A stretch of DNA of 64,000 nucleotides, from the NCBI RefSeq assembly GCF_017968885.1, contig NZ_CP072913.1, positions 4,386,001 to 4,450,000 on the forward strand, read 5' to 3'. Every line of letters starts with the position of its first letter. The stretch's first letter is position 1. The translations under genes were made by a program, and so were the position numbers. This DNA is from Pseudomonas sp. Tri1 (GTDB taxonomy: Bacteria; Pseudomonadota; Gammaproteobacteria; Pseudomonadales; Pseudomonadaceae). Shown piece by piece: positions 7,244 through 26,873 of this stretch. Under the pieces are notes generated by a model. The model made no database searches and was not told where the DNA came from. It saw only the letters and a program-made list of their open reading frames with translations.

Positions 7244-7261
7244 GACTTGCTCCCAAGATCG

Positions 7262-8155: not shown

Positions 8156-8159
8156 GGGA

Positions 8160-11100: not shown

Positions 11101-11128
11101 CGCAGCGTTGAAGCAAGTTCGCAGCGTT
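11101..11128. promoter_or_regulatory. Direct repeat in the LysR/Rieske divergent promoter
   Basis: CGCAGCGTT occurs at 11101-11109 and again at 11120-11128, nineteen bases apart (close to two helical turns), between the divergent LysR and Rieske genes. Direct repeats on one face of the helix are a common activator site. Only position and spacing support this. Confidence 0.3.
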
Positions 11129-11192
11129 ACCAAGTCAGCGATTCATCTGCGCGAGCAGAAACGCTGCACTAAGCCCCGATAATAAGGAGTGC

Positions 11193-12431
11193 ATGAAAGA
11201 AATGCCTAAGTACACCGACGTATTAGACCTGATCAAGCAGCGCAAACCGCAGCATGCTCTTCCTGGCGCTGCTTATTCTGATGCCGATCTGTATCGCCAG
11301 GATCTGGAGCAGATTTGGCATCGGGAGTGGATTTTTGCGGGGCACACTTTTGAGCTAGAGAAGCCAGGCCAATACCTGACCTTGCAGATCGGTGATTACC
11401 CGGTAGTCGTAGTACGCGGAAAAGACGGTAACGTCCGGGCGTTCCACAACGCTTGTCGTCATCGTGGCTCGAAAGTCTGCACCGAGGAAAAAGGCAAGGT
11501 CGCGAAACTGGTCTGCCCCTACCACAAGTGGACGTTCGAACTCGACGGCAAGCTTCTCTACGCCGGCAACATGGGCCCGGACTTCAACGCAGCCGACCAT
11601 GGACTTATACCAGCGCATTGTGAAGTGGTGCACAGCTACATTTATGTCTGCGTCGCCAAGGTCGCACCGGATTTCGAGAAGTTTCGCAGCGCCGTTTCGC
11701 CGTTCATCGGCCCGCACAATCTGGAAGACTGCAAAGTTGCTTTCGAAGCTCACCTGGTCGAGAAAGGTAATTGGAAACTCGTCTTCGAGAATAATCGCGA
11801 GTGCTATCACTGTGACGGGACCCACCCTGAATTGCTGAAGTCGTTTGTAGAAAACGTATCCGTCCAGGGCATCGGCGGTGACGAAGATCCGGAGCTTGCC
11901 GCCCATTGGAGCACCTGCGAGGCAGCGGGTTTGGCCAGCCGGATCAATATGGATCCGGCAGGTCAATATCGAATGACCCGGATTCCGCTCAGTGATGGCG
12001 CCAGCAGCTACACCATGGACGGCAAACCCGCCGTCAGCGGGCGCCTGGATCGTAGTGGCGTCGAGAATATCGGTGCGCTGCTCTACTTCAATTACCCATC
12101 GACCTGGAATCACTTTCTTGGCGACCACGCACTGAGCTTCCGCGTACTGCCTCAAGGTCCGGGCCAGACCGTCGTAACCACCCGCTGGTTGGTGCACAAG
12201 GATGCACAGGAAGGGGTGGACTACGATATCGAGCGCCTGACCAAGGTCTGGATGGCGACCAACGACCAGGACCGACGCCTGGTGGAGGGCGCGCAGGTCG
12301 GCGTCACCTCGCCCGCTTATCAACCGGGCCCGTACTCACCGCTGGTAGAGAATGGCGTCAACCAGTTTGTCGACTGGTACTGCGAGGTCATGACCCGTCG
12401 CCTGACGGAAGCGGCTTCAAGAATTCGATAA
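11193..12431 (+). CDS. Rieske oxygenase alpha subunit, GbcA-like N-demethylase candidate
   Basis: Encodes 412 residues. The Rieske [2Fe-2S] ligands are C88/H90 (CRHRG) and C108/H111 (CPYHKW). The mononuclear iron site has H206 and H211 in ECYHCDGTHPEL plus an Asp in NDQD (358-360). Overall it resembles GbcA, the glycine betaine monooxygenase that removes a methyl as formaldehyde, and related stachydrine/carnitine enzymes, but diverges enough to be a paralogue. No reductase lies beside it, so it may borrow the one at 32.8 kb. The betaine-type ABC transporter follows at once, pointing to a quaternary amine substrate. Exact substrate unknown. Confidence 0.88.
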   Translation: MKEMPKYTDVLDLIKQRKPQHALPGAAYSDADLYRQDLEQIWHREWIFAGHTFELEKPGQYLTLQIGDYPVVVVRGKDGNVRAFHNACRHRGSKVCTEEKGKVAKLVCPYHKWTFELDGKLLYAGNMGPDFNAADHGLIPAHCEVVHSYIYVCVAKVAPDFEKFRSAVSPFIGPHNLEDCKVAFEAHLVEKGNWKLVFENNRECYHCDGTHPELLKSFVENVSVQGIGGDEDPELAAHWSTCEAAGLASRINMDPAGQYRMTRIPLSDGASSYTMDGKPAVSGRLDRSGVENIGALLYFNYPSTWNHFLGDHALSFRVLPQGPGQTVVTTRWLVHKDAQEGVDYDIERLTKVWMATNDQDRRLVEGAQVGVTSPAYQPGPYSPLVENGVNQFVDWYCEVMTRRLTEAASRIR

Positions 12432-12698
12432 GAAGCGCACACCGACCCAAACCGTCCATTTGATTTAAATGCTTCTATCCATAAATAAGAACATGGCATC
12501 GGACGCCCCATGAGGTGATCAATGCCATACAGGGTGCGCTTAAGCCAGGGATGACTAAAAGTTCAAGGCAGAACTATGACGCACCGCAATGACTCACGTT
12601 CGGCATTCGAACGGACTGCCAATATGCGCTTGCCCGTCTGCTGTAATAGCGACTGAGACAAGTTAAATATTTGGTCATAAAGATAAGAAGAGGGTCGT

Positions 12699-13871
12699 AT
12701 GAGCCATGACGATGAAATTCTTTCGGTAAAAAACATTTTCAAGGTCTTTGGTTCTAATCCAGACATCGCCATGAAGATGTTGCGCAATGGCGCCGACAAG
12801 AACGAGATTTTTGATAAAACCGGCCATGTGGTCGGTGTATTTGACGCAAGTTTCTCGGTCAAGCGAGGCGAAATTTTCGTGATCATGGGGCTGTCAGGTT
12901 CTGGCAAATCGACCATGGTGCGCCTGTTCAATCGCTTGATCGAACCCACCTCGGGAAGCATTCACCTCAACGGCCGCGAAATTACCGGCCTCTCCGACAA
13001 AGCCCTGCTCGACGTACGGCGCAAGGAAATGGGCATGGTGTTCCAATCCTTTGCGCTGATGCCCCACATGAGCGTGCTGGAAAATACCGCCTTTGGCCTG
13101 GAAATCGCCGGCGTGCCAGAGAAAGAACGCCACCTGCGCGCCCGGGAAGCCTTGAGCCAGGTTGGCTTGGCGGGCCAGGAACACAGCTACCCTCATCAAC
13201 TGTCTGGCGGAATGCAACAACGTGTCGGGCTGGCCAGAGCATTGGCCAACGACCCGACGATCCTGCTGATGGACGAGGCATTTTCGGCCCTCGACCCATT
13301 GATCCGCAGCGAGATGCAGGGCGAGCTGATCCGCCTGCAGGCTGAACAACAGCGCACCATCATCTTCATCTCCCACGACATCGAGGAAGCCATTCGCATC
13401 GGCCATCGCATCGCGATCATGGAGGGCGGCCGGGTCGTGCAGATCGGTACTCCGCAGGAGCTGATCAACCAGCCGGCGACGGACTATGTGCGCAACTTCT
13501 TCAAGGGCTTTGACAGTTCAAGGGTCCTGACCGCAGGGGATGTGGCTCAACTGGATCCGGAAATGATCTGCCGGGTGAACGGTAAAGCGCCCAGTTTCAA
13601 AGCCGGCACACCCTATGGCTACCTGATCGACGAGCAAGACCAATTGCTGGGTGTCGTCGATACCGATGGCCACGGCGGCGTAGCGCAGGACCTGGCAGGT
13701 CAACGCCACAGCCTGCATGAGCAACGCCCCGTATACCTCGATACACCGCTGCATGACGTACTGGATATCGCCGCGACGCTGCCTTATCCAGTGCCGGTGC
13801 TTGACCGCGCAGGCGCCCTCAAGGGGACGCTTTCCAAGAGTCAGCTACTTCAAACCCTGAGTCGCCATTAA
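12699..13871 (+). CDS. proV: Quaternary-amine ABC transporter ATPase (ProV/OpuAA family)
   Basis: Encodes 390 residues. Walker A is GLSGSGKST (residues 64-72), the signature is LSGGMQQR (168-175) and Walker B is LLMDEAFSALD (around 189-199). The ProV-specific N-terminal extension (VKNIFKVFGSNPDIAMKML) is present, with a C-terminal regulatory region where CBS domains occur. A GAGGG ribosome site precedes the ATG. It energises uptake of glycine-betaine-like onium compounds, including DMSP in some bacteria. It forms an operon with permease and binding protein, with short gaps. Confidence 0.92.
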   Translation: MSHDDEILSVKNIFKVFGSNPDIAMKMLRNGADKNEIFDKTGHVVGVFDASFSVKRGEIFVIMGLSGSGKSTMVRLFNRLIEPTSGSIHLNGREITGLSDKALLDVRRKEMGMVFQSFALMPHMSVLENTAFGLEIAGVPEKERHLRAREALSQVGLAGQEHSYPHQLSGGMQQRVGLARALANDPTILLMDEAFSALDPLIRSEMQGELIRLQAEQQRTIIFISHDIEEAIRIGHRIAIMEGGRVVQIGTPQELINQPATDYVRNFFKGFDSSRVLTAGDVAQLDPEMICRVNGKAPSFKAGTPYGYLIDEQDQLLGVVDTDGHGGVAQDLAGQRHSLHEQRPVYLDTPLHDVLDIAATLPYPVPVLDRAGALKGTLSKSQLLQTLSRH

Positions 13872-13903
13872 GTGTCGGTGCAAATAGAAAAGAGGTAGCC
13901 ACC

Positions 13904-14857
13904 ATGTCGGATTTCAGTTTTTTAGACCCCTTCCAAACGGCGATCATCCCGTTGGGCGAATGGGTGCAAAACGCGCTCAACTATCTCGTCCACAACTTCC
14001 GGGACGTGTTCAGGGCGGTGCGCTGGCCAATCGATCAAGTGCTCAACGGCATTGAGTTCATCCTGCAAAGCATCCCGCCGACTATCGGGATCCTGCTGTC
14101 GTCGCTCTTGGGTTGGCAACTGGCAGGCAAACGCATGGCGCTGCTTTGCCTGGTGACCTTGACCCTGCTCGGCATGATCGGGGTGTGGTCCGAGTCCATG
14201 ACCACGCTGTCCCTCGTCCTCACCTCGGTGTTCTTCTGTGCGTTGTTCGGGGTGCCGTTGGGCATTCTCAGCGCCAGGAACGACCACCTGGAACGGGCCA
14301 TAAGACCGGCCCTGGACGCCATGCAAACGCTACCAGCCTTCGTCTATCTGGTACCGGTGGTGATGTTGTTCGGCATCGGCAACGTCCCCGGTGTTCTGGT
14401 AACCATCGTCTTTGCCCTTCCGCCACTGGTGCGCCTGACCAACCTGGGTATCCGCCAAGTACCGGAAGACAAGATCGAGGCGGCCCGCGCTTTCGGCTGC
14501 ACGCCTCGGCAGATGCTCATGCGCGTGCAACTGCCACTGGCCACGTCAACCATCATGGCGGGCCTGAACCAAACCCTGATGCTCTCCCTGTCGATGGTGG
14601 TCATCGCTTCGATGATCTCCGTCGGCGGACTGGGGCAGATGGTCCTGCGTGGTATCGGCCGCTTGGACATGGGCTTGGCCACCGTAGGGGGAGTCGGACT
14701 GGTATTGCTCGCCATCTTCCTCGATCGCCTCACACAGGCCATGGGCGAACGCAGCAAGGCCGACCCAAGTTTGCGCTGGTACCACACCGGCCCGGTCGGG
14801 CTGGTCATGCGCCTCTTCGGCTCACGCCAGCCTTCAGCGCGGCGCAAGACCGCTTGA
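13904..14857 (+). CDS. proW: Quaternary-amine ABC transporter permease (ProW family)
   Basis: Encodes 317 residues with about six membrane helices. The EAA-type coupling loop is at about residues 190-210 (EAARAFGCTPRQMLMRVQLP), and the N-terminal half carries the ProW motif PFQTAIIPLGEWVQ. It is preceded by GAGGTAG and lies 32 bases after the ATPase gene. It forms the inner-membrane channel of the importer with ProV and receives ligand from ProX. C-terminal residues after about 285 are polar and probably cytoplasmic. Confidence 0.92.
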   Translation: MSDFSFLDPFQTAIIPLGEWVQNALNYLVHNFRDVFRAVRWPIDQVLNGIEFILQSIPPTIGILLSSLLGWQLAGKRMALLCLVTLTLLGMIGVWSESMTTLSLVLTSVFFCALFGVPLGILSARNDHLERAIRPALDAMQTLPAFVYLVPVVMLFGIGNVPGVLVTIVFALPPLVRLTNLGIRQVPEDKIEAARAFGCTPRQMLMRVQLPLATSTIMAGLNQTLMLSLSMVVIASMISVGGLGQMVLRGIGRLDMGLATVGGVGLVLLAIFLDRLTQAMGERSKADPSLRWYHTGPVGLVMRLFGSRQPSARRKTA

Positions 14858-14913
14858 CACTTCGAACTTAGAACTGCCGCACTCAACTAAAAAAACGAAG
14901 AAAGGTATGTGAA

Positions 14914-15939
14914 ATGCGCGAATTGAAACTCTCCCGCAACATCCGGCGGTGCCTCTCGGCTGTCGCCCTGACCGTCTTGTCATTCCATGCCATGGCCTCG
15001 GCAGAGAAGCCCGGCGATGGTGTCTCGGTAACACCGATCTTTCCTTCCATCGCCGAAGAGCGCTTTCGGGGTGAAATCGCCATGGAGGGTCTGCGTGAAC
15101 TTGGCTACAAGATCAAGGAGCCGAAGGAAACCGAGTACTCCGTCATGTTGGTGGCCTTGGGCAGCGGCGACGCGGATTTCACCGTGCACTTGTGGGACAA
15201 GCTCCACGACACCTTCTACCAGAAAGCGGGCGGTGACGAGGACATGATCAAGGCAGGCGATATCATGCCTGGGGTATTGCAGGGCTATCTGATCGATAAA
15301 AAGACGGCCGACGCCTACAACATCAAATACCTGACGGACCTCAAGAAGCCAGAGATCGCGAAGCTGTTCGATGTCGACGGTGACGGAAAAGCGGACCTGA
15401 CCGGCTGCAACCCCGGCTGGGGCTGTGAGCTGACCATCGACCATCACCTCAAGGCCTATGGTCTCGAGAAAACGGTCAGCCATAATCGTGGTTCCTATTT
15501 CGCACTGATGGCCGACACCATCACCCGCTACAAACAGGGTCAGCCGATCCTCTATTACACCTGGGTGCCTCAATGGATCGCCGGCGTGTTGGTCGAGGGT
15601 AAAGACGTGGTATGGCTCGAAGTGCCGTACACCGACCTGCCAGGCGGCAACAACAAAGTCGACACCTCCTACAAAGGCAAGAATCTCGGTTTCGCCGTAG
15701 ACAAGATAGAAGCGGTACTCAACCGGGACTTTGCCAACAAGAATCCAGCGGCCCTGAAGTTTCTTTCGCAAATGCAGATCAGCACTGACGACGAAAGTGC
15801 GCAGAACCTGAGAATGCAAAAAGGTGAGAACAAGCCAGCGGATATCACCCGGCATGCCAAGGAGTGGATTGCCGCTCACCGTCAGCAATTCGACGCCTGG
15901 CTCCAGGCTTCACGGGATGCCGCCCAAGCCAGCAAGTAA
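14914..15939 (+). CDS. proX: Periplasmic quaternary-amine-binding protein (ProX family)
   Basis: Encodes 341 residues. A signal peptide ends near residue 30 (SFHAMASA). The mature part is an OpuAC/ProX-type type II binding fold with the motifs DADFTVHLWDKLHD and LYYTWVPQWIAGVL, rich in tryptophans as expected for an aromatic cage around a trimethylammonium or dimethylsulfonium group. Two cysteines in GCNPGWGCE probably form a disulfide, as in E. coli ProX. AAAGG lies upstream of the ATG. Final gene of the transporter operon, followed by the DddP-like gene after 228 bases. Confidence 0.92.
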   Translation: MRELKLSRNIRRCLSAVALTVLSFHAMASAEKPGDGVSVTPIFPSIAEERFRGEIAMEGLRELGYKIKEPKETEYSVMLVALGSGDADFTVHLWDKLHDTFYQKAGGDEDMIKAGDIMPGVLQGYLIDKKTADAYNIKYLTDLKKPEIAKLFDVDGDGKADLTGCNPGWGCELTIDHHLKAYGLEKTVSHNRGSYFALMADTITRYKQGQPILYYTWVPQWIAGVLVEGKDVVWLEVPYTDLPGGNNKVDTSYKGKNLGFAVDKIEAVLNRDFANKNPAALKFLSQMQISTDDESAQNLRMQKGENKPADITRHAKEWIAAHRQQFDAWLQASRDAAQASK

Positions 15940-16167
15940 CGGCCCTCCCCCTTCGCAGGCGCGCTTGTCGCCTGGCCACCAAACCTGGCCTTGAATGACG
16001 CGCTGTGTCCGATGGTTATCCAGCCATCGACAAAGCAGCTCCTCGTGGCTGGGTGAAGTGGCGGTGTATCCCGGCACGTTGACTGCGATATCCACGATGG
16101 TTTTGAACCGCTACTCGACTATCACTCGCTCGAGCAGCCCCTTCTGTAATGAATCAGGATGGGATTT

Positions 16168-17529
16168 ATGACGACTTCACCTTTTTCAATTCCCGCCAGC
16201 GCTCGCCGCATCGATCCAGCCCGGCAACGCGCAGCTGCGCTGAAAGCCGACGGCTCCGTCGACGACAACGATCGCGTCGAGATAGGCCCTACACCGCTGG
16301 CTTTCGCGGAGTGGGCCCAATTGGGCTTGCAAGCACCTCATCTACCGACCATGCGCCAATACCGACTGCAGCGGATCGTCGACCAATTGGTAGCGCGAGA
16401 CCTGGGCGGCATCCTGCTGTTTGACCCGTTGAATATCCGCTATGCCACCGACACCACGAACATGCAATTGTGGACGACCCATAATCCCGCGCGAGCGTGT
16501 TTCGTCGCGGCCAGCGGCCACGTAGTGCTGTGGGATTTCCATGGCTGTGATCACCTCTCCGCCCACTTGCCGTTGATTACCGAGTTACGCAGTGGCGCGT
16601 CGTTCTTTTACTTCGAGACCGGTGAACACACCGATCGCCATGCCAGGCATTTCGCAGGCCAGATCGACGAGCTGCTGCGTCAACACGCCGGAGCCAACCG
16701 ACGCTTGGCGGTAGACCGGATTGAAGTGGCAGGCGTGCGCGCGTTGGATGCACTCGCGGTGGAGATTTGCAGCGGCCAGGAAGTGACCGAGTTTGCGCGG
16801 ATGATCAAAGGCCCCGATGAAATCAAGGCGATGCGCTGCGCAGTGGCTTCATGCGAAGCGTCCATCACCGAGATGCATCAGGCACTGCGGGCAGGCGCAA
16901 CGGAAAACGATGTCTGGGCCGCCCTGCACGCCGGCAACATCCGCCGGGGCGGTGAGTGGATCGAAACGCGAATACTCAGTTCCGGCCCACGCACCAACCC
17001 GTGGTTCCAGGAGTCCGGCCCACGGGTATTGAACGATGGCGACTTGTTGTCGTTCGACACGGACCTGATCGGCACCTACGGTATGTGCGTGGACATGTCC
17101 CGCAGTTGGATCTGTGGGGGGCTGGAGCCAACAGCCGAACAGAAGCGCCTCTATCGAATCGCCCATGACCATATCATCCATAACACCGAGTTGATCAAGC
17201 CAGGTGTACGCTTTACCGAGCTGACCGCCAAGGCACACCGGTTGCCCGAACCCTGCCGGGCTCAGCGCTATGGCGTGCTTTACCACGGTGTAGGGCTGTG
17301 TGATGAGTACCCCAGCATTCGCTATCCGGAAGACTTGGACTCCTACGGATACGAAGGTGAGTTGCAGCCAGGCATGGCCCTTTGTGTCGAGGCGTATGTG
17401 GGTGAAGTGGGTGGGCAGGACGGGATCAAATTGGAGAACCAACTGTTGGTCACGGGAACCGGTTATGAACTGCTCACCCACTACCCCTTCGACGAAAGTT
17501 TTCTGCTGGATACGAAGCCCAACTCATGA
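16168..17529 (+). CDS. dddP: DddP-family DMSP lyase (M24 metallopeptidase fold)
   Basis: Encodes 453 residues. The sequence follows DddP along its length: VEIGPTPLAF near the N-terminus, then FDPLNIRYATDTTNMQLW, RRGGEWIETR and SGPRTNPWFQE. The dimetal ligands of characterised DddP map to D297, D299, D309, H373, E408 and E423, and the catalytic base to D379 in HGVGLCDE. All are present with one constant two-residue offset, as I recall the published numbering. DddP splits dimethylsulfoniopropionate into dimethyl sulfide and acrylate in the cytoplasm. The start is the ATG after AGGA. It follows the onium transporter and overlaps the next regulator by four bases (ATGA). DMSP is the predicted substrate; a close analogue remains possible. 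Confidence 0.85.
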   Translation: MTTSPFSIPASARRIDPARQRAAALKADGSVDDNDRVEIGPTPLAFAEWAQLGLQAPHLPTMRQYRLQRIVDQLVARDLGGILLFDPLNIRYATDTTNMQLWTTHNPARACFVAASGHVVLWDFHGCDHLSAHLPLITELRSGASFFYFETGEHTDRHARHFAGQIDELLRQHAGANRRLAVDRIEVAGVRALDALAVEICSGQEVTEFARMIKGPDEIKAMRCAVASCEASITEMHQALRAGATENDVWAALHAGNIRRGGEWIETRILSSGPRTNPWFQESGPRVLNDGDLLSFDTDLIGTYGMCVDMSRSWICGGLEPTAEQKRLYRIAHDHIIHNTELIKPGVRFTELTAKAHRLPEPCRAQRYGVLYHGVGLCDEYPSIRYPEDLDSYGYEGELQPGMALCVEAYVGEVGGQDGIKLENQLLVTGTGYELLTHYPFDESFLLDTKPNS

Positions 17530-18482
17530 GCCAATCGATCGAGGCCCGCAAAGCATCGAGCATAGGGTTCCTCCTGCTTGATAGCTTCTCCCTGACTTGC
17601 TTCACGCAATGCCTGGACGTGCTGATGACCGCTAACTTCATCCAGCCTGGCTCGATAAAAGTCCATACCTTCAGTCGCAACGATTGCGAAGTCATCAGCG
17701 ACCTGGCAATACCCATCAGACCCGATACGCCCCTGACCGATATCAGAATCGCGGCATTGGATCTGATGGTTGTCTGCGGCGGGCTACGCACGCCCAGAGT
17801 AGTCCCTGAAGGGCTGATAAAACTGCTGAACAAACTCGCAAGCATGCCCATTGCGCTCGGTGGGTTATGGAATGGCGCCTGGTACCTGGGCAAAGCCGGA
17901 CTGCTCGATGGCTACCGATGCGCCATCCATGCAGAACAACGCATTGCCTTATCGGAGTTTTCACCTAACACGACGGTGACCTTGGACACCGTGGTGTTCG
18001 ATCGTGACCGACTCACAGCGTCCAACCCCGCTGGCGCCTTTCAAGTCATGATGAAATGGCTTTACGCCGCTCTCGACCACAAAGTCGCAGACGCCGTGTT
18101 CGATCTATTGGATTATGACCAGTCTCGGCTCCGGACCTCGGTCAAGGTCCAAGGTCGTAACGTGAGCGCACCGCTGCAAGAAATAATCAAGCTGATGGAG
18201 TGCAACCTTGAAGAGCCGTTAGGCCTGGATTTGCTCGCAGAATGCGTTCGACTTTCCAAGCGCCAGATCCAACGCCTGTTTCGAGAGCAAATCAACACAT
18301 CCCCACAGCGCTACTATCTGGAGCTGCGACTTAGAGAAGCGCGTCGCCTGATACAAAATTCCAAACTGTCAGTCACTGATGTGGCCATTGCCTGCGGTTT
18401 CGTCTCGACCCCTCATTTCAGCAAATGCTATAGCACTTTCTTCAACTGCCCCCCGTCGAAAGAAAATCGCTACGAGATATAG
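17526..18482 (+). CDS. GlxA-family transcriptional regulator coupled to dddP
   Basis: Encodes 318 residues: DJ-1/PfpI-like domain (about 10-190) and C-terminal AraC helix-turn-helix pair (about 215-315; SKRQIQRLFREQ and ACGFVSTPHFSKCY). Its ATG overlaps the dddP stop in an ATGA, so the two are translationally coupled, implying that it senses the lyase substrate or product. Family relatives sense betaine, carnitine and sarcosine. The C-terminus is slightly short (ends soon after NCPPS), yet the second HTH is complete. Confidence 0.88.
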   Translation: MSQSIEARKASSIGFLLLDSFSLTCFTQCLDVLMTANFIQPGSIKVHTFSRNDCEVISDLAIPIRPDTPLTDIRIAALDLMVVCGGLRTPRVVPEGLIKLLNKLASMPIALGGLWNGAWYLGKAGLLDGYRCAIHAEQRIALSEFSPNTTVTLDTVVFDRDRLTASNPAGAFQVMMKWLYAALDHKVADAVFDLLDYDQSRLRTSVKVQGRNVSAPLQEIIKLMECNLEEPLGLDLLAECVRLSKRQIQRLFREQINTSPQRYYLELRLREARRLIQNSKLSVTDVAIACGFVSTPHFSKCYSTFFNCPPSKENRYEI

Positions 18483-18738
18483 CATTGGCCGACAGATTAT
18501 TCGGCTGTGCCGACGGACGTTCGTATGACTACGGGCGGCCGCGACCCAGCCTGCCTGAACGTTGGCAATGAGTGGCGATGAGTGACCAGTCCGCAGCCGC
18601 GACCCCTATAGGTCCGGCGTCAACTTATAACGCAGGGTCATGTATTGCTGTTAATAAATGTTAGTTGTTGCGCCAGGGTTTGCCCCCGTAATCTGCATAC
18701 AAACCAAAACCGCAACTATTTTAATAACAGGGCACTGT

Positions 18739-19629
18739 ATGAACTTTGATGGCGTGTGGACTCCCGTTGTAACTCCCTTTAATACTTCGGGCGCCGTGGA
18801 CTTCAGGTCGCTGGAAAACATCATTGACTCACTTATCGAACAAGGTGTGCATGGCCTGATCGTCGGTGGTACGACGGGCGAATACTATGCCTTGTCCCAT
18901 GATGAACGATTGGCGCTGTTCGATTTCATCGCCGACTATGCCAAATCGCGTATTCCCTTGATGGCGGGCATCAATGCCACTACCACCCAGGAAAGCCTCA
19001 CGCTGGGCCTGCATGCAAAAAAAGTGGGCTTCAATGCCATTCTTCTTGCCGCTCCCTACTACTGCCAACCGACCCAACAAGAACTGCTGGTCCATGCCTT
19101 GAGCGTCGATGACGCGCTCGACATGCCCATCATGCTCTACAACTTTCCGGCGCGTACCGGGACCGAAATGTCCTGGGAATTCATCAACGGACTCAAGGGC
19201 CGTCCCAACTTCCAGGCGATCAAGGAAAGCACCGGCTCAATTGAACGCATGCACGGCCTGCTCAACGAACACACCGATCAGTTGCAAGTGAGCTGCGGCA
19301 TGGACGACCAGGTGCTGGAATTTTTCACCTGGGGCGCCCGCAGCTGGGTCGCTGGCGCATCCAACTTCCTTGCGCCGGAACATGTCGCACTGTACCAGGC
19401 GTGTGTCGTGGAAAAGGACATGATCAAAGGTCGTGAACTGGCGACCCGTTTGTTGCCGATGCTCAACCTGCTCGAACAAGGCGGCAAGTTCTGCCAGTAC
19501 ATCAAACACGGCTGCGAATTGGCCGGCCAGCCGGTGGGTGTGACCCGTCTGCCTTTGCAACCGCTCAGCGAAGCAGAGAAAAGCGCATTCAAGACTGTCT
19601 ATGAACAGCTGACGGCTCATCGCGCCTGA
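18739..19629 (+). CDS. DapA-like (DHDPS/NAL superfamily) lyase, copy 2
   Basis: Encodes 296 residues. It keeps the canonical GGTTGE loop (about residues 42-47), Y134 (MLYNFPARTG) and Schiff-base K162 (AIKEST), so the aldolase/dehydratase chemistry is intact. I chose the internal ATG with CAGGG upstream; 27 upstream codons look non-coding. It is followed 23 bases later by an FAD oxidase, giving the same pairing as at 5.9-8.2 kb but in the opposite gene order. It is far more canonical than copy 1, so the two pairs probably serve different substrates. The substrate is not known. Confidence 0.87.
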   Translation: MNFDGVWTPVVTPFNTSGAVDFRSLENIIDSLIEQGVHGLIVGGTTGEYYALSHDERLALFDFIADYAKSRIPLMAGINATTTQESLTLGLHAKKVGFNAILLAAPYYCQPTQQELLVHALSVDDALDMPIMLYNFPARTGTEMSWEFINGLKGRPNFQAIKESTGSIERMHGLLNEHTDQLQVSCGMDDQVLEFFTWGARSWVAGASNFLAPEHVALYQACVVEKDMIKGRELATRLLPMLNLLEQGGKFCQYIKHGCELAGQPVGVTRLPLQPLSEAEKSAFKTVYEQLTAHRA

Positions 19630-19652
19630 CACATACGGCGGAGGCGCTTGCC

Positions 19653-20981
19653 ATGCAGCTTCAGTGTAATTTTCTACCTCAAAACGATGGCCAACCCGGT
19701 TGGTACGAAACGCTGCCACCACCGGCACCCAGCACCCCGCTCAAAGGCGCCGTCAGGGCCGACTGGGCGGTTCTCGGTGCCGGCCTGGCGGGGTTGGCTG
19801 CCGCCCGGAGACTGGCCGAACTCTTACCCGAGGCGTCGATTGCATTGATCGACGCCAAGCGGGTAGGTTTCGGTGCGGCCGGACGCAACTCCGGCTTCAT
19901 GGTGGACTTGCCCCATGACCTGACGTCCCACAGCTACACCTCCGACCGTACCGCCGACCAGCGCATCATTCGGTTGAGTCGTGGCGGCATCGATTTCATG
20001 CGCCAGATCGTCCAGCGCGAAGGCATCGAGTGCGATTGGCGCGAGCAGGGCAAGTTGCATGGCGCCGTCAACCCACAAGGCATCGCCGCGCTTGAGTCCT
20101 TTGCCAAAGGGCTGAGCGGATTGGGGGAGCCCTACACGATGCTGGATGCCGCACGGATGAAAGCGATCACCGGTACCGACTTCTACAAATCGGGACTGCA
20201 TGCCCCCGGTTGCGTACTCGTTCAACCCGCCGCGTTGTGCCGGGGCCTGGCGCAATCGTTGCCAGCGAACGTCACGTTGTATGAAGACAGCCCGGTATTG
20301 AACATTGAACTCGGCAAACCTCATGAGCTGACTACCGCCCAAGGCGTGCTTTCGGCGCCACGCATGGTGATGGCCAACAATGCCTACGCGGCACCGTTCG
20401 GTCAGCTTGGACTCAAGGGTCGGTTACTGCCCGTCTACACGTACGCCAGCCTGACCCGAGAGTTGACTGCCCAAGAGCAGGCCCGCCTGGGTGGGGAGCA
20501 AAGCTGGGGGCTCATTCCCGCCGACCCGCTGGGCACCACCGTGCGCAGGCTCGCCAATGGCCGGATTTGCATTCGCAACTCCTTCACCTACAACCCGCGC
20601 CTGGCAGCGAGTCCCCGTACGCTTGAGCGTGTACGCCGCGCTCACCGCCACTCCTTCGAGGCACGCTTTCCAATGTTGTCAGGCGTGCCGTTCGAATACA
20701 CCTGGGGCGGCGCGCTGTGCATTTCGCGCAACTCCGGCTCTGTCTTTGGCGAGATCGCGCCGGACGTGTTCAGCGCCGTGTGCTGCAACGGCTTGGGCCT
20801 GACCCGCAGCACCGTGGCGGGCAAACTGATCGCCGAATACGCCGTGGGAATGGGCAGTGAACTGCTGGACATCATGCTCGATCAACCTGACCCCTGCTGG
20901 AATCCCCCGGAACCGTTCCTGGGCTTGGGGCTGCGTTCTTCCATTGCTTGGAAGGAGTGGCAGGCAGGCGCGGAACTCTGA
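19653..20981 (+). CDS. FAD-dependent amine/amino-acid oxidoreductase (DAO family), copy 2
   Basis: Encodes 442 residues, the same length as copy 1 and alignable with it throughout: VLGAGLAGLAAARRLAELLP for FAD, FGAAGRNSGFMVDLPHD, PGCVLVQPAALCRGLA and C-terminal CNGLGLTRSTVAGKL. A CGGAGG ribosome site precedes the ATG. It should oxidise a C-N bond with FAD, delivering an imine or its hydrolysis product to the preceding DapA-like enzyme or the reverse. A perfect 10-bp hairpin beyond the stop separates it from the convergent oxygenase gene. Confidence 0.87.
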   Translation: MQLQCNFLPQNDGQPGWYETLPPPAPSTPLKGAVRADWAVLGAGLAGLAAARRLAELLPEASIALIDAKRVGFGAAGRNSGFMVDLPHDLTSHSYTSDRTADQRIIRLSRGGIDFMRQIVQREGIECDWREQGKLHGAVNPQGIAALESFAKGLSGLGEPYTMLDAARMKAITGTDFYKSGLHAPGCVLVQPAALCRGLAQSLPANVTLYEDSPVLNIELGKPHELTTAQGVLSAPRMVMANNAYAAPFGQLGLKGRLLPVYTYASLTRELTAQEQARLGGEQSWGLIPADPLGTTVRRLANGRICIRNSFTYNPRLAASPRTLERVRRAHRHSFEARFPMLSGVPFEYTWGGALCISRNSGSVFGEIAPDVFSAVCCNGLGLTRSTVAGKLIAEYAVGMGSELLDIMLDQPDPCWNPPEPFLGLGLRSSIAWKEWQAGAEL

Positions 20982-21168
20982 AGAACCCATCTCTCAGATC
21001 TCAAGAGGAGCGCCGCACCGTGCCCACTTCGCAGGGCCCTGCACCACGATCCGCCGGATTCCTTTTGTTGGATGGCTTTGGTTCATCTGCGGAGTATTTC
21101 GGTGTGATACCTCGTGATGAACGCACTTCGTCGAATAGCTATGGGTAACTCCAACGCCTCCCAGGACG

Positions 21169-21194
21169 GTCACCGTCTCCACGCAGACGGTGAC
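21169..21194. terminator. Hairpin between convergent oxidase and oxygenase genes
   Basis: GTCACCGTCT and AGACGGTGAC form a perfect 10-bp stem with a 6-base loop. On the plus strand GGATTTTGTG follows. It sits between two genes that converge, so it probably serves both. Confidence 0.6.
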
Positions 21195-21249
21195 TGGATT
21201 TTGTGATGGGGCCCGAATGCATCGAGCCTTCATCCACCAAGGGTTGGCC

Positions 21250-22239
21250 TTAGACGGCTTCGACAGCCTGCAAGTGGGCGTAGCTGGCGACAAAGCGACT
21301 GTATTTGTGTTGGCCACAGGTGTAGGGCGCATATTTGGCAGGGTTACTGAGGCTGATGCACGTTGGCACAGTCTCGACAGTCGCGTCGAAGTCCAAGTCG
21401 ATGAAGAATGGAATGGAGTACCGTTCGACACCGCTGGTATTGATGACGCGGTGCATAGTCGAGGTGTAGCGGTCATTCGTCAGGGTTTGCACCAGATCAC
21501 CGATGTTGACGATGAACGTATCTTCCACCGGTGGGGCGCTGACCCATTCACCCGCACGATTGCGCACTTGCAAGCCACCGACCTTGTCTTGGAAAAGGAT
21601 CGTCAGAAAGCCATAGTCCGTATGCGCTCCGATCCCGATTTCCTTTTGTGAAATTTCGCCACTCTGCGGGGGATAGTGCAGCAAGCGCTGGATGGTGATC
21701 GGTTTGCGTTGCAGTTTTTCAAAGTAGTCCGCTGGCAGATCGAGGCTCAGTGCAATGGCGCTGATGAGCTTGCGCGCCAGGTCAAGCATTGCACGATGGT
21801 AGGCGTCACAGACATCCGAAAAATCCGTGAGCTCAACCGGCATCAGGTTTGCCCCGAAGAAAGGAGACACTTCGTCATAGTGGGCGCCATAGTCGAAGCA
21901 TTCCTTGAAATCGCGGGTATTTTCCGGATCGACGTTTTCCGCGTACATGGGTATGTAGCCGCGAAGCGTGGGACCTGAATTGACCACGTTCAACTTATTC
22001 TTCTTATCAAAAGGCATGGCAAAGAAGCCTTTCGTCTGGGCATACATCGCGTCGATCAATGCGCGCGGCACTCCATGGTTTTTAATATAGAAAAAACCAA
22101 CTTTCTCGCAAGTTTCTCCCATCTGGCGCGCAACTTTTCGCGGGTCGCTCCCATCGAGTAACGGTGCGACATCAATGAAGGGAATCTCTTCGAATGTCGT
22201 CTGCTTGCTTGTAAGTCTGGTATCGGTCATCTGAACCAT
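21250..22239 (-). CDS. 2-oxoglutarate/Fe(II) oxygenase (isopenicillin-N-synthase-like)
   Basis: Encodes 329 residues: an N-terminal DIOX_N region (IPFIDVAPLL, GFFYIKNHG) and a C-terminal double-stranded beta-helix. The iron triad is H206, D208 (HTDYG) and H263 (TMHRV), and the oxoglutarate-binding R273-x-S275 follows. The start was chosen with GAGG eight bases upstream. Such enzymes hydroxylate or demethylate small molecules or make ethylene. Position inside the onium island suggests hydroxylation of a betaine, proline or related compound. No partner is needed. The reaction cannot be fixed from sequence. Confidence 0.85.
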   Translation of the reverse strand: MVQMTDTRLTSKQTTFEEIPFIDVAPLLDGSDPRKVARQMGETCEKVGFFYIKNHGVPRALIDAMYAQTKGFFAMPFDKKNKLNVVNSGPTLRGYIPMYAENVDPENTRDFKECFDYGAHYDEVSPFFGANLMPVELTDFSDVCDAYHRAMLDLARKLISAIALSLDLPADYFEKLQRKPITIQRLLHYPPQSGEISQKEIGIGAHTDYGFLTILFQDKVGGLQVRNRAGEWVSAPPVEDTFIVNIGDLVQTLTNDRYTSTMHRVINTSGVERYSIPFFIDLDFDATVETVPTCISLSNPAKYAPYTCGQHKYSRFVASYAHLQAVEAV

Positions 22240-22527
22240 CGGTCGATCCTCAACGAAAGCGCCGTGCTTTAATTATCCTGAAGTGAGTTGTAGCTCCTGG
22301 GACCAAGCATATTCACCTTGACCTTGTAAGCTGAACTCATTGTTCAGAACTGAATGGGCACGAACAAACCATTTTTCATTCAATACTCATGAGAAAAAAT
22401 CAAGTATGAGAATACGACCGCGCCTGTATCTTTCGATGTCATACAGGCATGGCCTTTCATGGTTTGCTTAGATCAAATTTCGTCAATTATCATTCGGCCT
22501 GGCAGCTCCGGGCAGACAACTCCGCCA

Positions 22528-22776
22528 TCAAGTCAAGCCATCGCTACTGCAATCTTTGCAAAGCCGTCGTGCGATGCTGTGACGCCTCGTATCTTTTTCC
22601 AAAAGTTCGACGGCTATTAGCTCTTCGATGCCGGCACCGGCTTCAACCTTTTCAATAAAATTCAGAATTGCCTTTTTCATGAACCAATGAGAGGTGCGAT
22701 CCAACCTGGCCGACGCTGACTTCAGCCTGGCCCGCGTTTCTTCATCCAACTTGATGCCCTGCGTGGTCACCGCCAT
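22528..22776 (-). CDS. Stand-alone PutA-type ribbon-helix-helix DNA-binding protein
   Basis: Encodes 82 residues. The first 47 (TTQGIKLDEETRARLKSA, RTSHWFMKKAILNFIEKVE) closely resemble the N-terminal DNA-binding domain that begins proline utilisation protein PutA. No proline dehydrogenase domain follows; residues after about 60 are a short basic, cysteine-bearing tail. AGAGGA precedes the ATG, so it is likely translated. It may be a dedicated repressor of proline-type genes in this island or the relic of a lost putA. RHH proteins act as dimers on short repeats. Confidence 0.65.
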   Translation of the reverse strand: MAVTTQGIKLDEETRARLKSASARLDRTSHWFMKKAILNFIEKVEAGAGIEELIAVELLEKDTRRHSIARRLCKDCSSDGLT

Positions 22777-22828
22777 ATTTCATCCTCTCAATCGCTACCC
22801 GAATTCATTCACTTTTTATAACGAAGCA

Positions 22829-23449
22829 TTAATGCATCAAGCCCCACAGTGCCAAAAGTGGAACACCCATCGACTTCATCGCATGGACACAGGATGGGGG
22901 GTTGAAGACTAAACCTCCTGGTCCAGGACTCCACCAGCCCACGTCCTCCCGGTACCAGTCACCCGGTGACAGCACGAGATAGAACTCGGCAGGCGGGTGT
23001 TGGTGATAGGGGTAACAAGTCTCAGGCATCATGAGCGCCAACCCCAAGGTCAAGGTGGAACATTCAAATAGCCCTCCAGGTCCTGCGATCATCCCGTGGC
23101 GATGTCGCTCCACGAAAGCACTGTCTTGGCCAGCCTTGGCTTGACGGTTTATCCAGGTGACATGGGGCAAGAGCTTGCCTAGCGCATCCAGTATCGACAC
23201 CAGAGACTCATTGGCTCTAGGTGCAGCATCAAGCGCCTCGGATAAATGGCGCTCCAGAAAGCCTGGTAACGCATTTGAAATTTCCGCAGTCTGCCTGATA
23301 CTCCATTGGGCCGTATTTAGAGACACAATATGTGCTTGCGCCTTATCGCAACCGCTGCCCGACAGGACGTTCTGAAGCGAACGCCTGAGCAAGTCGCCGT
23401 TGCTGATGATGTCCCGATCCCACGATGGCTCTTCAGTGCTGTTTATCAT
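22829..23449 (-). CDS. Cupin DMSP lyase candidate (DddQ/DddK/DddW/DddL superfamily)
   Basis: Encodes 206 residues from the chosen ATG; a GTG 21 codons upstream is the alternative. The C-terminal cupin has H149-x-H151-x3-E155-x-Y157 (YHQHPPAEFY) and H189 exactly 32 residues after the tyrosine, the spacing recalled for DddQ (Y131/H163) and DddK (Y64/H96). In those enzymes these residues bind the metal and the tyrosine is the base that splits DMSP to dimethyl sulfide and acrylate. SPGPGGLVFNPP is the second cupin strand. It precedes an onium-binding protein's 3' side on the same strand and lies under 6 kb from dddP. Many family members have weak or other activities, so function needs proof. Confidence 0.78.
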   Translation of the reverse strand: MINSTEEPSWDRDIISNGDLLRRSLQNVLSGSGCDKAQAHIVSLNTAQWSIRQTAEISNALPGFLERHLSEALDAAPRANESLVSILDALGKLLPHVTWINRQAKAGQDSAFVERHRHGMIAGPGGLFECSTLTLGLALMMPETCYPYHQHPPAEFYLVLSPGDWYREDVGWWSPGPGGLVFNPPSCVHAMKSMGVPLLALWGLMH

Positions 23450-23563
23450 CGTCTTCAGTCCCATTTCCCGAGCAGTGTATCGAACTCGTTCGATGTATCC
23501 GCCGCCCTTCACGTTCGGTCAAGGTCAGCGGATTGCAACGCAACTATCGGACAGCAACCGCCA

Positions 23564-24463
23564 TTACTGGACCGGTGTCGCGGAAGCGGTCCGGCTGCCA
23601 AACATCGCTTCGAAACGAGGCTTGTTGGCGGCGTAGTACTCTGCAACGACCTTGTCGGCCGAGCTATCGCGTGCGGCGGCCATCAACGTCTCAAGGTCAG
23701 TTTTAGGAATCTTGAAGTTGGCGAAGAACCGGGCGACGTCTGGATGTTCGGCGCTGAAACTTTTGCGTGCAATCGCGTGAATTTGCTCAGCGCCACCGAA
23801 AATCTGCTTTGGATCATCCAGGTAGCGCAGCGGCCACTTGGCGAACATCCAGTGTGGGCTCCAGGCATTGATCAACGACCATTTGTCACGCTTGAGGTTG
23901 CGATCCAACTCGCTCAGCATTCCAGACTCTGAAGAAGCGACCATCTTGTAACCATCGAGTTTATATTCCTTGATGGCCTGCTCCGTGAGTTTGTATTGGC
24001 CGTTACCTACTTCCGAAGTTAAGATCTTGCCACCGAGTTTCTCCCGCACTTCTGGCTTATTAAGATCTTCGACACTGGCAATCTCGCTGGTCGGAATAGA
24101 AGTGGGCACCGCCATGCCGATCCGACCCTCATACAGCACACCGAGGTCTTCGAGTTTGTCTTTGTACTTGTCATAGAAAGATTTGTGAGTACTCGGCAGC
24201 CAGACCATCGGGATCAGGTCGATATTGCCGTTGGCCAGGGCCTGGAACTGAATGCCGATGTCGGCAAGCACCAATTTGACCGGTTGCTTGAGATGGTCGC
24301 GCAATGCCGTGTCTGCCAGCTTTACAGCGATTTCCGTATCCGACCAATTCACCCATCCGATACGGATGGGCATGGGCTCCTCGGCTTGAGCCATCAGGCT
24401 ACTGGAGGCCATCGCCAGGCCTGCAAGCCAGCCGATACACGTTTTACTGGATAACGTAACCAT
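23564..24463 (-). CDS. Orphan ProX/OpuAC-type quaternary-amine-binding protein
   Basis: Encodes 299 residues. A signal peptide ends around residue 27 (SSLMAQAEE). The mature protein starts MPIRIGWVNWSDTE and has the OpuAC core with WLPSTHKSFYDKY and NAWSPHWMFAKW, again tryptophan-rich. No ATPase or permease is adjacent. In Pseudomonas several CbcX/CaiX-like binding proteins feed one ProVW-type core, so it may widen the range of the transporter at 12.7-15.9 kb. It lies directly upstream of the cupin lyase on the same strand, probably in one transcript. Confidence 0.88.
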   Translation of the reverse strand: MVTLSSKTCIGWLAGLAMASSSLMAQAEEPMPIRIGWVNWSDTEIAVKLADTALRDHLKQPVKLVLADIGIQFQALANGNIDLIPMVWLPSTHKSFYDKYKDKLEDLGVLYEGRIGMAVPTSIPTSEIASVEDLNKPEVREKLGGKILTSEVGNGQYKLTEQAIKEYKLDGYKMVASSESGMLSELDRNLKRDKWSLINAWSPHWMFAKWPLRYLDDPKQIFGGAEQIHAIARKSFSAEHPDVARFFANFKIPKTDLETLMAAARDSSADKVVAEYYAANKPRFEAMFGSRTASATPVQ

Positions 24464-24738: not shown

Positions 24739-24779
24739 AAATGTACACCTGTGTCTCAATCGTTGACACACATGAACAT
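24739..24779. promoter_or_regulatory. Imperfect palindrome upstream of the DgcA-like gene
   Basis: ATGTACACCTGTGTC at 24741-24755 matches the reverse complement of GACACACATGAACAT at 24765-24779 in 12 of 15 positions, around nine bases. The first part, AAATGTACACC at 24739-24749, recurs exactly at 31186-31196 inside the palindrome between the TetR gene and the second Rieske gene. A shared regulator is likely. Confidence 0.5.
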
Positions 24780-24836
24780 TCAACATACCGTTATGTCAAA
24801 ACCAAGCCTGATGTTCTGTTCCCGGAGCGCAACACC

Positions 24837-26873
24837 ATGTCCAGCGATCCTCTGCTGCAGCCCTATAAGATCAAACACCTGACCCTCAAAAACCGGATCA
24901 TGACCACCTCCCATGAGCCCGCGTATCCCGTCGACGGCATGCCGAAGGATCTGTACCGGGCTTATCACGTTGAACGGGCGAAAGCCGGCGTGGCCCTGAC
25001 CATGACGGCGGGCTCCGCCGCTGTTTCCCGTGACAGCCCGCCAGTGTTCAACAACGTGCTGGCGTACAAGGATGAAGTGGTCAAATGGATGAAAGACCTG
25101 ACCGACGAATGCCACGAACACGGCGCCGCGGTGATGATTCAACTGACCCACCTGGGACGCCGTACGCGCTGGGACAAGGCCGACTGGCTCCCGGTCGTAT
25201 CGCCTTCTCATCGCCGTGAAGCGTCCCACCGGGCCTTCCCGAAAAAGATGGAAGAGTGGGATATCGACCGGATCATCAAGGACTACGTGGATGCCGCCGA
25301 ACGCATGAAGGCTGCCGGTCTTGATGGTTTGGAATTGCAGGCTTACGGGCACCTCATGGATCAGTTCTGGTCGCCACTGACCAACGACCTCGACGGTCCC
25401 TATGGCGGCTCGCTGGAAAACCGCCTGCGCTTCACCTTTGATGTGTTGCGTGGCATCCGCCAGCGCTGTGGCGAAGACTTCCTGCTCGGGGTTCGTTACA
25501 CCGGTGACGAGGACCTGCCGGGCGGCTTCGGTGCCAAAGACGGCATCCAGATTTCCCACATGCTCAAGGACAGCGGGCTGGTGGATTTTCTCAACGTCGT
25601 TCGCGGTCACATCGATACTGATGCGGGCCTCACCGATGTGATTCCGATCCAAGGCATGCGTAACTCGCCACACCTGGATTTTGCTGGCGAGATCCGCTCG
25701 GCCACCGGCTTCCCGACGTTCCATGCGGCCAAGATCCCGGACGTGGCCACGGCACGGCACGCCATAGCCTCCGGCAAGGTGGACATGATCGGCATGACCC
25801 GGGCACATATGACCGATCCGCACATCGTGCGCAAGATCATCGAAAAACGAGAGGAAGACATCCGCCCCTGCGTCGGCGCCAACTATTGCCTGGACCGTAT
25901 CTACCAGGGCGGCGCGGCGTATTGCATCCACAACGCCGCCACTGGCCGCGAAACCACCATGCCCCACGAAATCCCCAATGCGCCGGTCAAGCGCAAGGTG
26001 GTGGTGATCGGCACCGGCCCGGCGGGCCTGGAGGCGGCACGGGTCGCCGGTGAACGCGGCCACGACGTCACGGTGTTCGAAGTCGCCGACCAGCCCGGCG
26101 GCCAGATCCGCTTGACCGCCCTGAGCGAGCGTCGTCGCGAGATGATCAGCATCATCGATTGGCGCATGGCGCAATGCGAACGGCTGGGGGTGAAGTTCCA
26201 CTTCAACACCTGGGCCGAAGCCGAGACCGTCATGGCCGAAGAACCCGACGTGGTCATCGTCGCCACCGGCGGCTTGCCTCACACCGAGGTGCTCAAGCAG
26301 GGCAATGAACTGGTGGTGTCGACCTGGGACATCATTTCCGGCGACGTCAAGCCCGGCCAGAACGTACTGATCTTCGATGACGCCGGCGACCACGCAGCGC
26401 TACAAGCGGCCGAGGTCATTGCCAACAGCGGCGCAAAACTGGAGATCGTCACGCCGGACCGCTCGTTTGCGCCGGAGGTAATGGCGATGAACCTGGTGCC
26501 TTACATGCGCAGCCTGCAAGACCTGAACGTCACCTTCACGGTCACCTATCGGGTCGACTCCGTAGAGAAGCGTGACGACCAGTTGGTGGCCAGCTTCGGC
26601 AGCGATTATGGGCAGGTGCACAATCAGCGCGTGGTCGATCAGGTGGTGGTCAACCACGGCACCCTGCCCCTGGACGATCTGTACTTCGACCTGCGCCCGC
26701 ATTCAACCAACAACGGCGCGGTTGAACAGCACGATCTGATCGCCGGAAAACCCCAAAATATCGTGACCACCCCTGAAGGCCGCTTCCAGCTGTTCCGGAT
26801 CGGCGACGCGGTGTCGGCACGTAATACCCACGCAGCCATCTACGATGCGCTGCGGCTGGTGAAAGACATCTGA
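24837..26873 (+). CDS. DgcA-like FMN/FAD oxidoreductase (dimethylamine-type demethylase)
   Basis: Encodes 678 residues in two parts: an old-yellow-enzyme TIM barrel (about 1-370) and a Rossmann NAD/FAD region (about 385-678, VVVIGTGPAGLEAARV). It aligns along its length with DgcA, which with DgcB demethylates dimethylglycine, and with trimethylamine dehydrogenase. Cluster cysteines are C345, C351 and C363; position 348, the second cysteine in trimethylamine dehydrogenase, is alanine, as I recall also for DgcA. I chose the ATG after GGAG. A terminator follows. It fits the step after a Rieske demethylase. No dgcB partner is in the window. Confidence 0.85.
   Translation: MSSDPLLQPYKIKHLTLKNRIMTTSHEPAYPVDGMPKDLYRAYHVERAKAGVALTMTAGSAAVSRDSPPVFNNVLAYKDEVVKWMKDLTDECHEHGAAVMIQLTHLGRRTRWDKADWLPVVSPSHRREASHRAFPKKMEEWDIDRIIKDYVDAAERMKAAGLDGLELQAYGHLMDQFWSPLTNDLDGPYGGSLENRLRFTFDVLRGIRQRCGEDFLLGVRYTGDEDLPGGFGAKDGIQISHMLKDSGLVDFLNVVRGHIDTDAGLTDVIPIQGMRNSPHLDFAGEIRSATGFPTFHAAKIPDVATARHAIASGKVDMIGMTRAHMTDPHIVRKIIEKREEDIRPCVGANYCLDRIYQGGAAYCIHNAATGRETTMPHEIPNAPVKRKVVVIGTGPAGLEAARVAGERGHDVTVFEVADQPGGQIRLTALSERRREMISIIDWRMAQCERLGVKFHFNTWAEAETVMAEEPDVVIVATGGLPHTEVLKQGNELVVSTWDIISGDVKPGQNVLIFDDAGDHAALQAAEVIANSGAKLEIVTPDRSFAPEVMAMNLVPYMRSLQDLNVTFTVTYRVDSVEKRDDQLVASFGSDYGQVHNQRVVDQVVVNHGTLPLDDLYFDLRPHSTNNGAVEQHDLIAGKPQNIVTTPEGRFQLFRIGDAVSARNTHAAIYDALRLVKDI

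Follow-up and report, generated by a model that had tools for sequence, protein, structure and literature searches.

Dimethylsulfoniopropionate (DMSP) lyases of two unrelated folds are the closest described relatives of the genes treated here. In DddP, an enzyme of the M24 fold, roles have been given to the metal-binding and catalytic residues (passages of PMC4108388), and purified DddP enzymes are described as cleaving dimethylsulfoxonium propionate (DMSOP) as well as DMSP (passages of PMC10686828). The occurrence of dddP in Pseudomonas is already published, the gene being named in a list for P. thivervalensis SC5 (PMC8515041); this species carries the gene pair described below, but the passages of that paper on SC5 name dddP and dmoA only, with no cupin or betaine neighborhood. 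For the breakdown of proline betaine, passages of PMC12239276 describe StcD as an N-methylproline demethylase on pSymB, and a set of D-amino acid oxidase, dihydrodipicolinate synthase (DHDPS), and aldehyde dehydrogenase has been ascribed to the use of trans-4-hydroxyproline or its betaine (in part of PMC4113996).

Here, a 64,000-nucleotide stretch of Pseudomonas sp. Tri1 (contig NZ_CP072913.1, positions 4,386,001 to 4,450,000; hereafter the window) was analyzed, in which a DddP-type gene and a DddQ-like cupin gene share one island. Database labels name both genes DMSP lyases. An earlier sequence-only reading had likewise proposed two lyases for DMSP in one locus or, alternatively, activity on another onium compound. 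Both candidate genes are present and open where it had placed them: the DddP-type M24 lyase gene (16159..17529, forward strand, intact open reading frame [ORF] of 456 amino acids) and the gene of a PF16867 cupin with a DddQ-like predicted fold (22829..23512, reverse strand, intact ORF of 227 amino acids). The starts it had chosen, 16168 and 23449, agree with those of the relatives: the likely true start of dddP is the internal ATG at 16168, at or near which most aligned relatives begin, and that of the cupin is 23464 or 23449, positions whose equivalents are used by close relatives. The two genes probably belong to separate, neighboring pathways and do not duplicate one function. With somewhat better than even confidence, we propose that two adjoining modules serve the catabolism of plant onium osmolytes here, with DddP as a probable DMSP/DMSOP lyase and the cupin as an accessory enzyme of proline betaine catabolism. 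Two lyases for one substrate is the weaker reading, because the cupin lies outside the DddQ structures and has the demethylase HpbA/StcD as its recurring partner; another onium compound suits the cupin better.

Assignment of the M24 protein to DddP

The M24 protein scores 613.2 bits against the DddP equivalog model NF043017 (curated cut-off of 600), and its best match in the PDB is RlDddP (4rzy, E = 1.5e-160). In a tree of 65 rows, built without fungal DddP, it falls inside a DddP clade of 35 rows (Shimodaira-Hasegawa-like approximate likelihood ratio test [SH-aLRT] of 99, quick search), which includes the structure-solved RlDddP and the copies of Loktanella, Paracoccus, Oceanisphaera, and class-level gammaproteobacterial genomes. 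The Pseudomonas copies form a single clade (18 rows, support 100). The metal and catalytic set is complete (8/8), as D300, D302, D312, H376, E411, E426, Y371, and D382 correspond to D295, D297, D307, H371, E406, E421, Y366, and D377 of DddP, that is, to six metal ligands followed by Tyr366 and Asp377. The family assignment, the full residue set, and the position among characterized DddP proteins thus all bear out what the sequence-only reading had said of this gene.

The catalytic residues were discarded as proof of lyase identity. The six metal ligands and Y366 are identical in 34/34 DddP-clade rows and in 30/30 other rows, and D377 is conserved in 34/34 and 25/30, respectively; since the sister families retain the same residues, a complete active site is not diagnostic of DddP. 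What tells the groups apart is an N-terminal block together with positions such as G282 and H333, and the window protein matches all 14 marker positions of the clade, though it is itself one of the rows. Compared with the DddP of R. lacuscaerulensis (4rzy) and R. denitrificans (4b28), it shares the clade, the length, the N-terminal block, the six ligands, and the Y366/D377 equivalents, but differs in being about 53-55% identical to the alphaproteobacterial proteins, in its Pseudomonas host, and in the place of its gene behind ProVWX in a betaine island. The ratio of nonsynonymous to synonymous divergence (dN/dS) is 0.034-0.060 in four comparisons, and the copies look to be under purifying selection. 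Judged by its sequence, the window DddP is a probable DMSP/DMSOP lyase.

Fold and phylogeny of the cupin

The cupin matches PF16867 (“DMSP_lyase”, a broad cupin family) at 125.3 bits (gathering cut-off of 27), and its best sequence match in the PDB is DddQ (4b29, E = 4.7e-9). The silence of NCBIfam on this protein was set aside as evidence against DddQ, as the DddQ fragments match no DddQ model either. Its AlphaFold2 model (predicted local distance difference test score of 88.6, 43 sequences) has a predicted DddQ-type helical N-terminus and a cupin barrel. When the PDB was searched with this model, ranks 1-6 were all DddQ chains (188-196 columns), with DddY, DddK, and generic cupins below them, most of the listed generic cupins matching over about 110 columns. 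Y167, H170, H172, E176, Y178, and H210 of the window protein correspond to Y120, H123, H125, E129, Y131, and H163 of RlDddQ, whose roles in DddQ we in part presume. The HxHxxxE motif, the further His, and the two Tyr are invariant in 43 aligned sequences, a set chosen without the ligand-less second rhizobial cupin. That second PF16867-like cupin, without the HxH...E ligands, is found in Rhizobium proline-betaine loci (L088:17383-18078, L087:17383-18081). Around the cupin gene of the window, the GC content dips to 51.7% (22001-24000), the lowest 2-kb step.

With DddQ (4la2, 4b29, 5cu1), the window cupin therefore shares the helical N-terminus and barrel, the metal ligands, and the two tyrosines, but it is only 14-22% identical to it in fold alignments, sits on a separate branch, has an HpbA neighborhood, and, unlike DddQ, carries conserved W193, W223, and N204. 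In the cupin tree (91 rows, 115 columns), which was built without DddK, DddW, or DddY rows and is limited by few columns and long branches, a branch of 1.93 changes per column (SH-aLRT 94) separates the three DddQ structure fragments from the rest. The window cupin belongs to a Pseudomonas clade, the rhizobial cupins adjacent to HpbA form a second clade, and the single DddL row is placed without resolution on a long branch. Mapped on this tree, the label “HpbA-adjacent” requires 4 changes, compared to 28.5 in shuffles. Thus, of the DddQ/DddK/DddW-type assignment made from the sequence, the fold and ligands stood, and a place in the DddQ clade was not supported.

The barrel has a dN/dS of 0.03-0.09 and the N-terminal half one of 0.29-0.56 (five comparisons); the cupin as a whole looks to be under purifying selection. 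A fast-evolving N-terminal half, along with the ligand-less second cupin of the rhizobial loci, would fit a protein without an enzymatic role, acting as a scaffold or sensor for HpbA. We regard this as very improbable, given how strongly the barrel is constrained and that Y, H, H, E, Y, and H do not vary in the alignment described above.

Co-occurrence of the cupin with DddP and with HpbA/StcD

A total of 298 Pseudomonas genomes were surveyed by profile searches, using the cut-offs of NF043017 for DddP and of PF16867 for the cupin. DddP is found in 17 genomes (18 copies, two of them in G149) and the cupin in 19 (21 at E 0.001). Both occur together in seven (G000, G124, G125, G149, G173, G210, and G245), where independence predicts 1.1, although the Fisher p (1.8e-5) makes this look stronger than it is, the genomes being related. 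The two genes are at most 5.4 kb apart in five genomes and lie about 31 kb apart in G149 and about 94 kb apart in G245. In a scan of genome contigs, the carriers of the close pair were P. thivervalensis DSM 13194, P. corrugata DSM 7228, P. zanjanensis SWRI12, Pseudomonas sp. Q11, and ICMP22404. DddP above the cut-off is missing from 12 of the 19 cupin genomes, and 8 of the 17 DddP genomes have neither the cupin nor HpbA.

Next to the cupin and its OpuAC neighbor, the gene at 24741..26873 (forward strand) codes for an HpbA/StcD-like N-methylproline demethylase, a flavin enzyme of the old yellow enzyme (OYE) type. Its product is 74-78% identical to four plasmid genes labeled HpbA from Paracoccus and Thioclava (among the best 40 of 338 matches) and 77.7% identical to the enzyme whose gene adjoins the cupin gene on the S. 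meliloti plasmid pRmeGR4d, which we infer to be StcD. The identification is by identity and neighbors, as a labeled HpbA itself matches only other OYE models of NCBIfam, below their cut-offs. Counted at an identity of at least 77%, HpbA is present in 57 of the 298 Pseudomonas genomes (as a fragment only in G221), including 15 of the 19 with the cupin (Fisher p 7e-9, relatedness ignored) and 7 of the 17 with DddP (p 0.03).

The same association is seen among cupin loci inside and outside the genus. From 170 relatives of the cupin, 80 loci were kept, 79 of which contain the cupin ORF. An HpbA-like gene (counted here at an identity of at least 45%) lies within 7 kb of the cupin in 38 of the 79, a betaine ATP-binding cassette (ABC) transporter gene in 44, and any one of HpbA, Rieske, ProC, and betaine ABC genes in 47. 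HpbA also adjoins the cupin in Rhizobium, Sinorhizobium, and Paracoccus aminovorans; on Rhizobium plasmids, the cupin is found between an HpbA-like gene and electron transfer flavoprotein (ETF) genes, followed by formaldehyde-detoxification and hydroxyproline-type genes. The HpbA/StcD loci of Paracoccus, Sinorhizobium, and Rhizobium share with the window the N-methylproline demethylase, a ProC-like gene, a TetR gene, and a ProU-type importer, and those of Sinorhizobium, Rhizobium, and Paracoccus aminovorans HPD-2 share a related cupin as well. The window differs from them in that its HpbA and OpuAC genes are not separated by ETF genes and that the DddP module lies alongside. The recurring partner of the cupin is thus a putative N-methylproline demethylase, HpbA/StcD. 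A strict alternation of cupin and M24 genes beside HpbA was considered and ruled out, as 16 HpbA stretches contained an M24 gene in two cases and a cupin in none. Among the open-license matches listed, no paper was found that places a cupin of the DMSP-lyase type in proline-betaine loci or links this cupin with HpbA, and the passages found in a stachydrine review (PMC11337228) contained nothing on catabolism by bacteria.

Two modules of different history

Compared to P. thivervalensis, the synonymous divergence (dS) is 0.43 for HpbA, 0.51 for the cupin, and 0.58 for OpuAC, versus 0.91 for the AraC regulator, 1.18 for DddP, and 1.39-2.50 for ProVWX, values above about 1 being rough. The comparisons with P. 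zanjanensis, ICMP22404, and G125 point the same way, but Q11 shows the opposite order, with ProVWX, DddP, DHDPSb, and DAOb at 0.19-0.29 and HpbA, cupin, and OpuAC at 0.37-0.53; in this comparison AraC was matched only in part. The 2-oxoglutarate oxygenase has a dS of 0.36-0.66, and its divergence resembles that of the cupin module. In four relatives without dddP (L074, L077, L078, and L081), the EamA gene stands directly beside the cupin, at the place where the window holds the DddP module (5906..22828, between EamA at 4994-5905 and the cupin). Synonymous divergence and the relatives without dddP therefore indicate that the modules differ in history, presumably through insertion or replacement.

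Proposed pathways and the points against them

From the gene families, the DddP clade, the cupin's predicted fold and ligand set, and the membership and divergence of the modules, we infer substrates, reactions, uptake, and regulation as follows. In the first module, ProVWX would import the substrate and DddP would cleave it. Most likely, the substrate (DMSP or DMSOP) would be bound through its carboxylate at the two-metal M24 site, and Asp382 would take the alpha proton, upon which dimethyl sulfide (DMS) or dimethyl sulfoxide leaves along with acrylate. This module would probably be switched by the GbdR-like regulator, the gene of which overlaps dddP. The second module would break down proline betaine, in a scheme that draws in part on passages of PMC4113996 and PMC12239276 and on annotations: the Rieske oxygenase and its reductase would remove the first N-methyl group, HpbA/StcD would remove the second to give proline, and OpuAC would serve uptake. 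Here the cupin may act as a metal-dependent accessory enzyme, carrying out a beta-elimination at a carbon-heteroatom bond (chemistry of the DMSP-lyase type) on an onium compound that shares the uptake route of proline betaine; DMSP cleavage would be a side activity at most. If the cupin does belong to proline-betaine catabolism, the number of terrestrial DMS producers is misjudged wherever rhizobial and pseudomonad cupins carry the label “DMSP lyase”. An active DddP would enable root bacteria of this group to make DMS from plant DMSP.

Several observations weigh against these roles. The pathway does not need the cupin, since PF16867 above its cut-off is absent from 42 of the 57 HpbA-bearing Pseudomonas genomes, an otherwise similar island in G153 (L242) is without it, and none is annotated beside hpbA in Paracoccus SMMA_5. 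In addition, 4 of the 19 cupin genomes are without HpbA, 32 of the 79 cupin loci have none of HpbA, Rieske, ProC, and betaine ABC genes nearby, and in HpbA-negative Pseudomonas, DddP is found in two of the four cupin genomes (p 0.009). Relatives of ProVWX at 75-86% identity lie near HpbA in G138 and G060, so the importer may carry proline betaine. With 609-628 bits, the DddPs of Pseudomonas lie close to the lower limit of NF043017, whereas others reach up to 881. On a plasmid of Loktanella salsilacus (L211:7977-15133), a clear DddP (870 bits) has a Rieske pair and an HpbA-like gene (66% identity) in its vicinity, and thus DddP too may serve betaine loci. Finally, in a class control of 369 gammaproteobacterial genomes (10 with DddP and 9 with PF16867 above the cut-offs), PF16867 was found in 5/9 DddP genomes versus 8/368 overall when the window's own genome was left out (0.2 expected), on other contigs each time, and one of the five (L229) has a cupin of the window's type, 42% identical to it.

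A genome with both DddP and PF16867 is therefore no rarity. The class control also bears on the reading in which the two proteins, DddP and the cupin, arose convergently as lyases and draw on the same DMSP pool. Both proteins have full active sites and the right folds, they co-occur in Pseudomonas as well as in the class, and mutants of R. pomeroyi and R. nubinhibens indicate that DddP and DddQ both release DMS (passages of PMC5395565). Nevertheless, we consider this reading unlikely: the cupin is linked to HpbA more than to DddP, it lies outside the DddQ structures, the modules diverge differently, and most cupin genomes have no DddP. Moreover, in two of the class genomes with DddP (L232 and L233), the cupin shares 46-56% identity with RlDddQ and RnDddQII, both DddQ of known structure, and the window's cupin is unlike these two. 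Besides the cupin of L229, the remaining ones are 33% identical to RlDddQ/RnDddQII (L234) or weakly similar to all (L230). Genuine DddQ thus looks different from the window cupin, the contrast being the sharper because two of the five co-occurring class cupins are clear DddQ.

Rhizobia, Burkholderiaceae, and pseudomonads have DddP-related M24 proteins, annotated as “Xaa-Pro peptidase”, that are encoded either near a Rieske oxygenase and a reductase or next to HpbA (L089:15109-16221, L255-L258, L261, L298, and L299). Among six plasmid loci of such sister proteins, a gene annotated as Rieske-type is present within 7.3 kb in five, of which three show the order Rieske-reductase-M24, and the sixth has a gene of the trimethylamine-methyltransferase family. 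In five Pseudomonas genomes (L237, L238, L261, L298, and L299), the sister M24 gene is beside HpbA. These loci would agree with neither window protein acting on DMSP in the cell, both serving instead the catabolism of proline or hydroxyproline betaine, with DMSP cleavage in assays as promiscuity; the Km of known lyases for DMSP, which is in the millimolar range (passages of PMC5395565), points the same way. This, too, appears improbable, since the window protein falls in the DddP clade and has the DddP N-terminal block, unlike the sister families, and since the 13 class-level DddP stretches (L212-L224) contain no match to Rieske or HpbA. The sister proteins themselves are not always found in betaine loci, an idea that was rejected: in 42 Pseudomonas stretches around them, Rieske was matched in three, HpbA in three, and neither in 36, counts that depend on stretch length, some stretches being ended by contig ends. 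A match to the betaine/carnitine/choline transporter (BCCT) family is present in 10 of the 42 (eight at an identity of at least 77% to the BCCT of the MPC6 betaine cluster), two of these also being among the six with Rieske or HpbA; five arbitrary control stretches had no Rieske, HpbA, or BCCT match.

A more far-reaching proposal, which we hold to be quite doubtful, is that proline-betaine loci were the cradle of both DMSP-lyase folds (M24/DddP and PF16867), each doing an overlooked betaine lyase step, and that the DMSP lyases are recruited offshoots. In rhizobia, pseudomonads, and the marine Loktanella, M24/DddP relatives are repeatedly seen in the vicinity of Rieske and HpbA demethylases, as are PF16867 cupins, and recruitment would explain the millimolar Km for DMSP. 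The cupin DddK is described as forming C-N bonds by aza-Michael addition (PMC12582016), which shows that a beta C-N bond is within reach of the cupin fold. The shared neighborhood makes this a testable idea on the origin of DMSP lyases.

Other genes of the island

In keeping with the two-module reading that we favor, the DddP module contains importer genes upstream of and co-directional with dddP on the forward strand, ProV (12699-13871), ProW (13904-14857), and ProX (14914-15939). ProW scores 470.1 bits (cut-off of 439) and ProX 465.5 (cut-off of 215) in NCBIfam, and ProV reaches 407.9 bits in its family TIGR01186 (cut-off of 326.6) and 439.8 in the equivalog, slightly below 444. Of the 18 Pseudomonas copies of dddP, eight have ProX on their own strand no more than 223 bp upstream (gaps measured between match ends), five have it 2.7-4.4 kb upstream, and for the other five it was not found in the stretch around dddP. 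Behind dddP, the AraC-type GbdR-like regulator (17526..18482, forward) has a start that overlaps the dddP stop and scores 251.7 bits against NF052371 (below 480); it is followed by second DHDPS-family and DAO-family genes (18658..20981, forward; TIGR00674 at 212.1 versus 206.15, PF01266). Upstream of the importer, the reverse strand carries a DAO-family oxidase, a DHDPS-family enzyme, and an aldehyde dehydrogenase (5918..9671), a set like that of 4-hydroxyproline catabolism, and a LysR regulator (9983-10972). A Rieske oxygenase on the forward strand (11193-12431) is a relative of GbcA that fails as GbcA itself (NF058607, 504.4 versus 670 bits). An Fe(II)/2-oxoglutarate oxygenase (21250..22239, reverse; PF14226 and PF03171) recurs near HpbA in other Pseudomonas loci (L243, L251, and L252).

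On the side of the cupin, the gene of an OpuAC binding protein of the betaine/choline type adjoins it (23564..24463, reverse; PF04069, 204 bits), as an OpuAC gene is near the cupin in relatives too. The betaine/onium island with ProVWX and two betaine-type binding proteins, as first described from the sequence, is thus confirmed by family matches. Further on, between 29650 and 33926, there are a ProC-like gene and a TetR gene (both reverse), a Rieske oxygenase (31524-32780, forward), and a GbcB-like reductase (32784-33926, forward), all of which are also near the cupin in relatives without dddP (L074, L075, L078, and L079). The alcohol dehydrogenase at 27549-28718 is a weak candidate for an acrylate gene (best 179.1 of 296.8 bits) and was rejected. 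A gene of the AcuI/YhdH family scores above the cut-off elsewhere in the genome (G000:C1:3270131, 429 bits); the family was matched in 13 of 14 control genomes, above the cut-off in two. No tRNA genes were found in the 64-kb window. A possible short gene lies between the oxygenase and the cupin (22400-22815, reverse), where one guessed frame had five stops. At 36371-42099, an outer-membrane protein of the phenol-degradation type, a transporter of the major facilitator superfamily, a lignostilbene dioxygenase-like gene, an FAA hydrolase, and an IclR regulator form a possible aromatic catabolic cluster adjoining the island.

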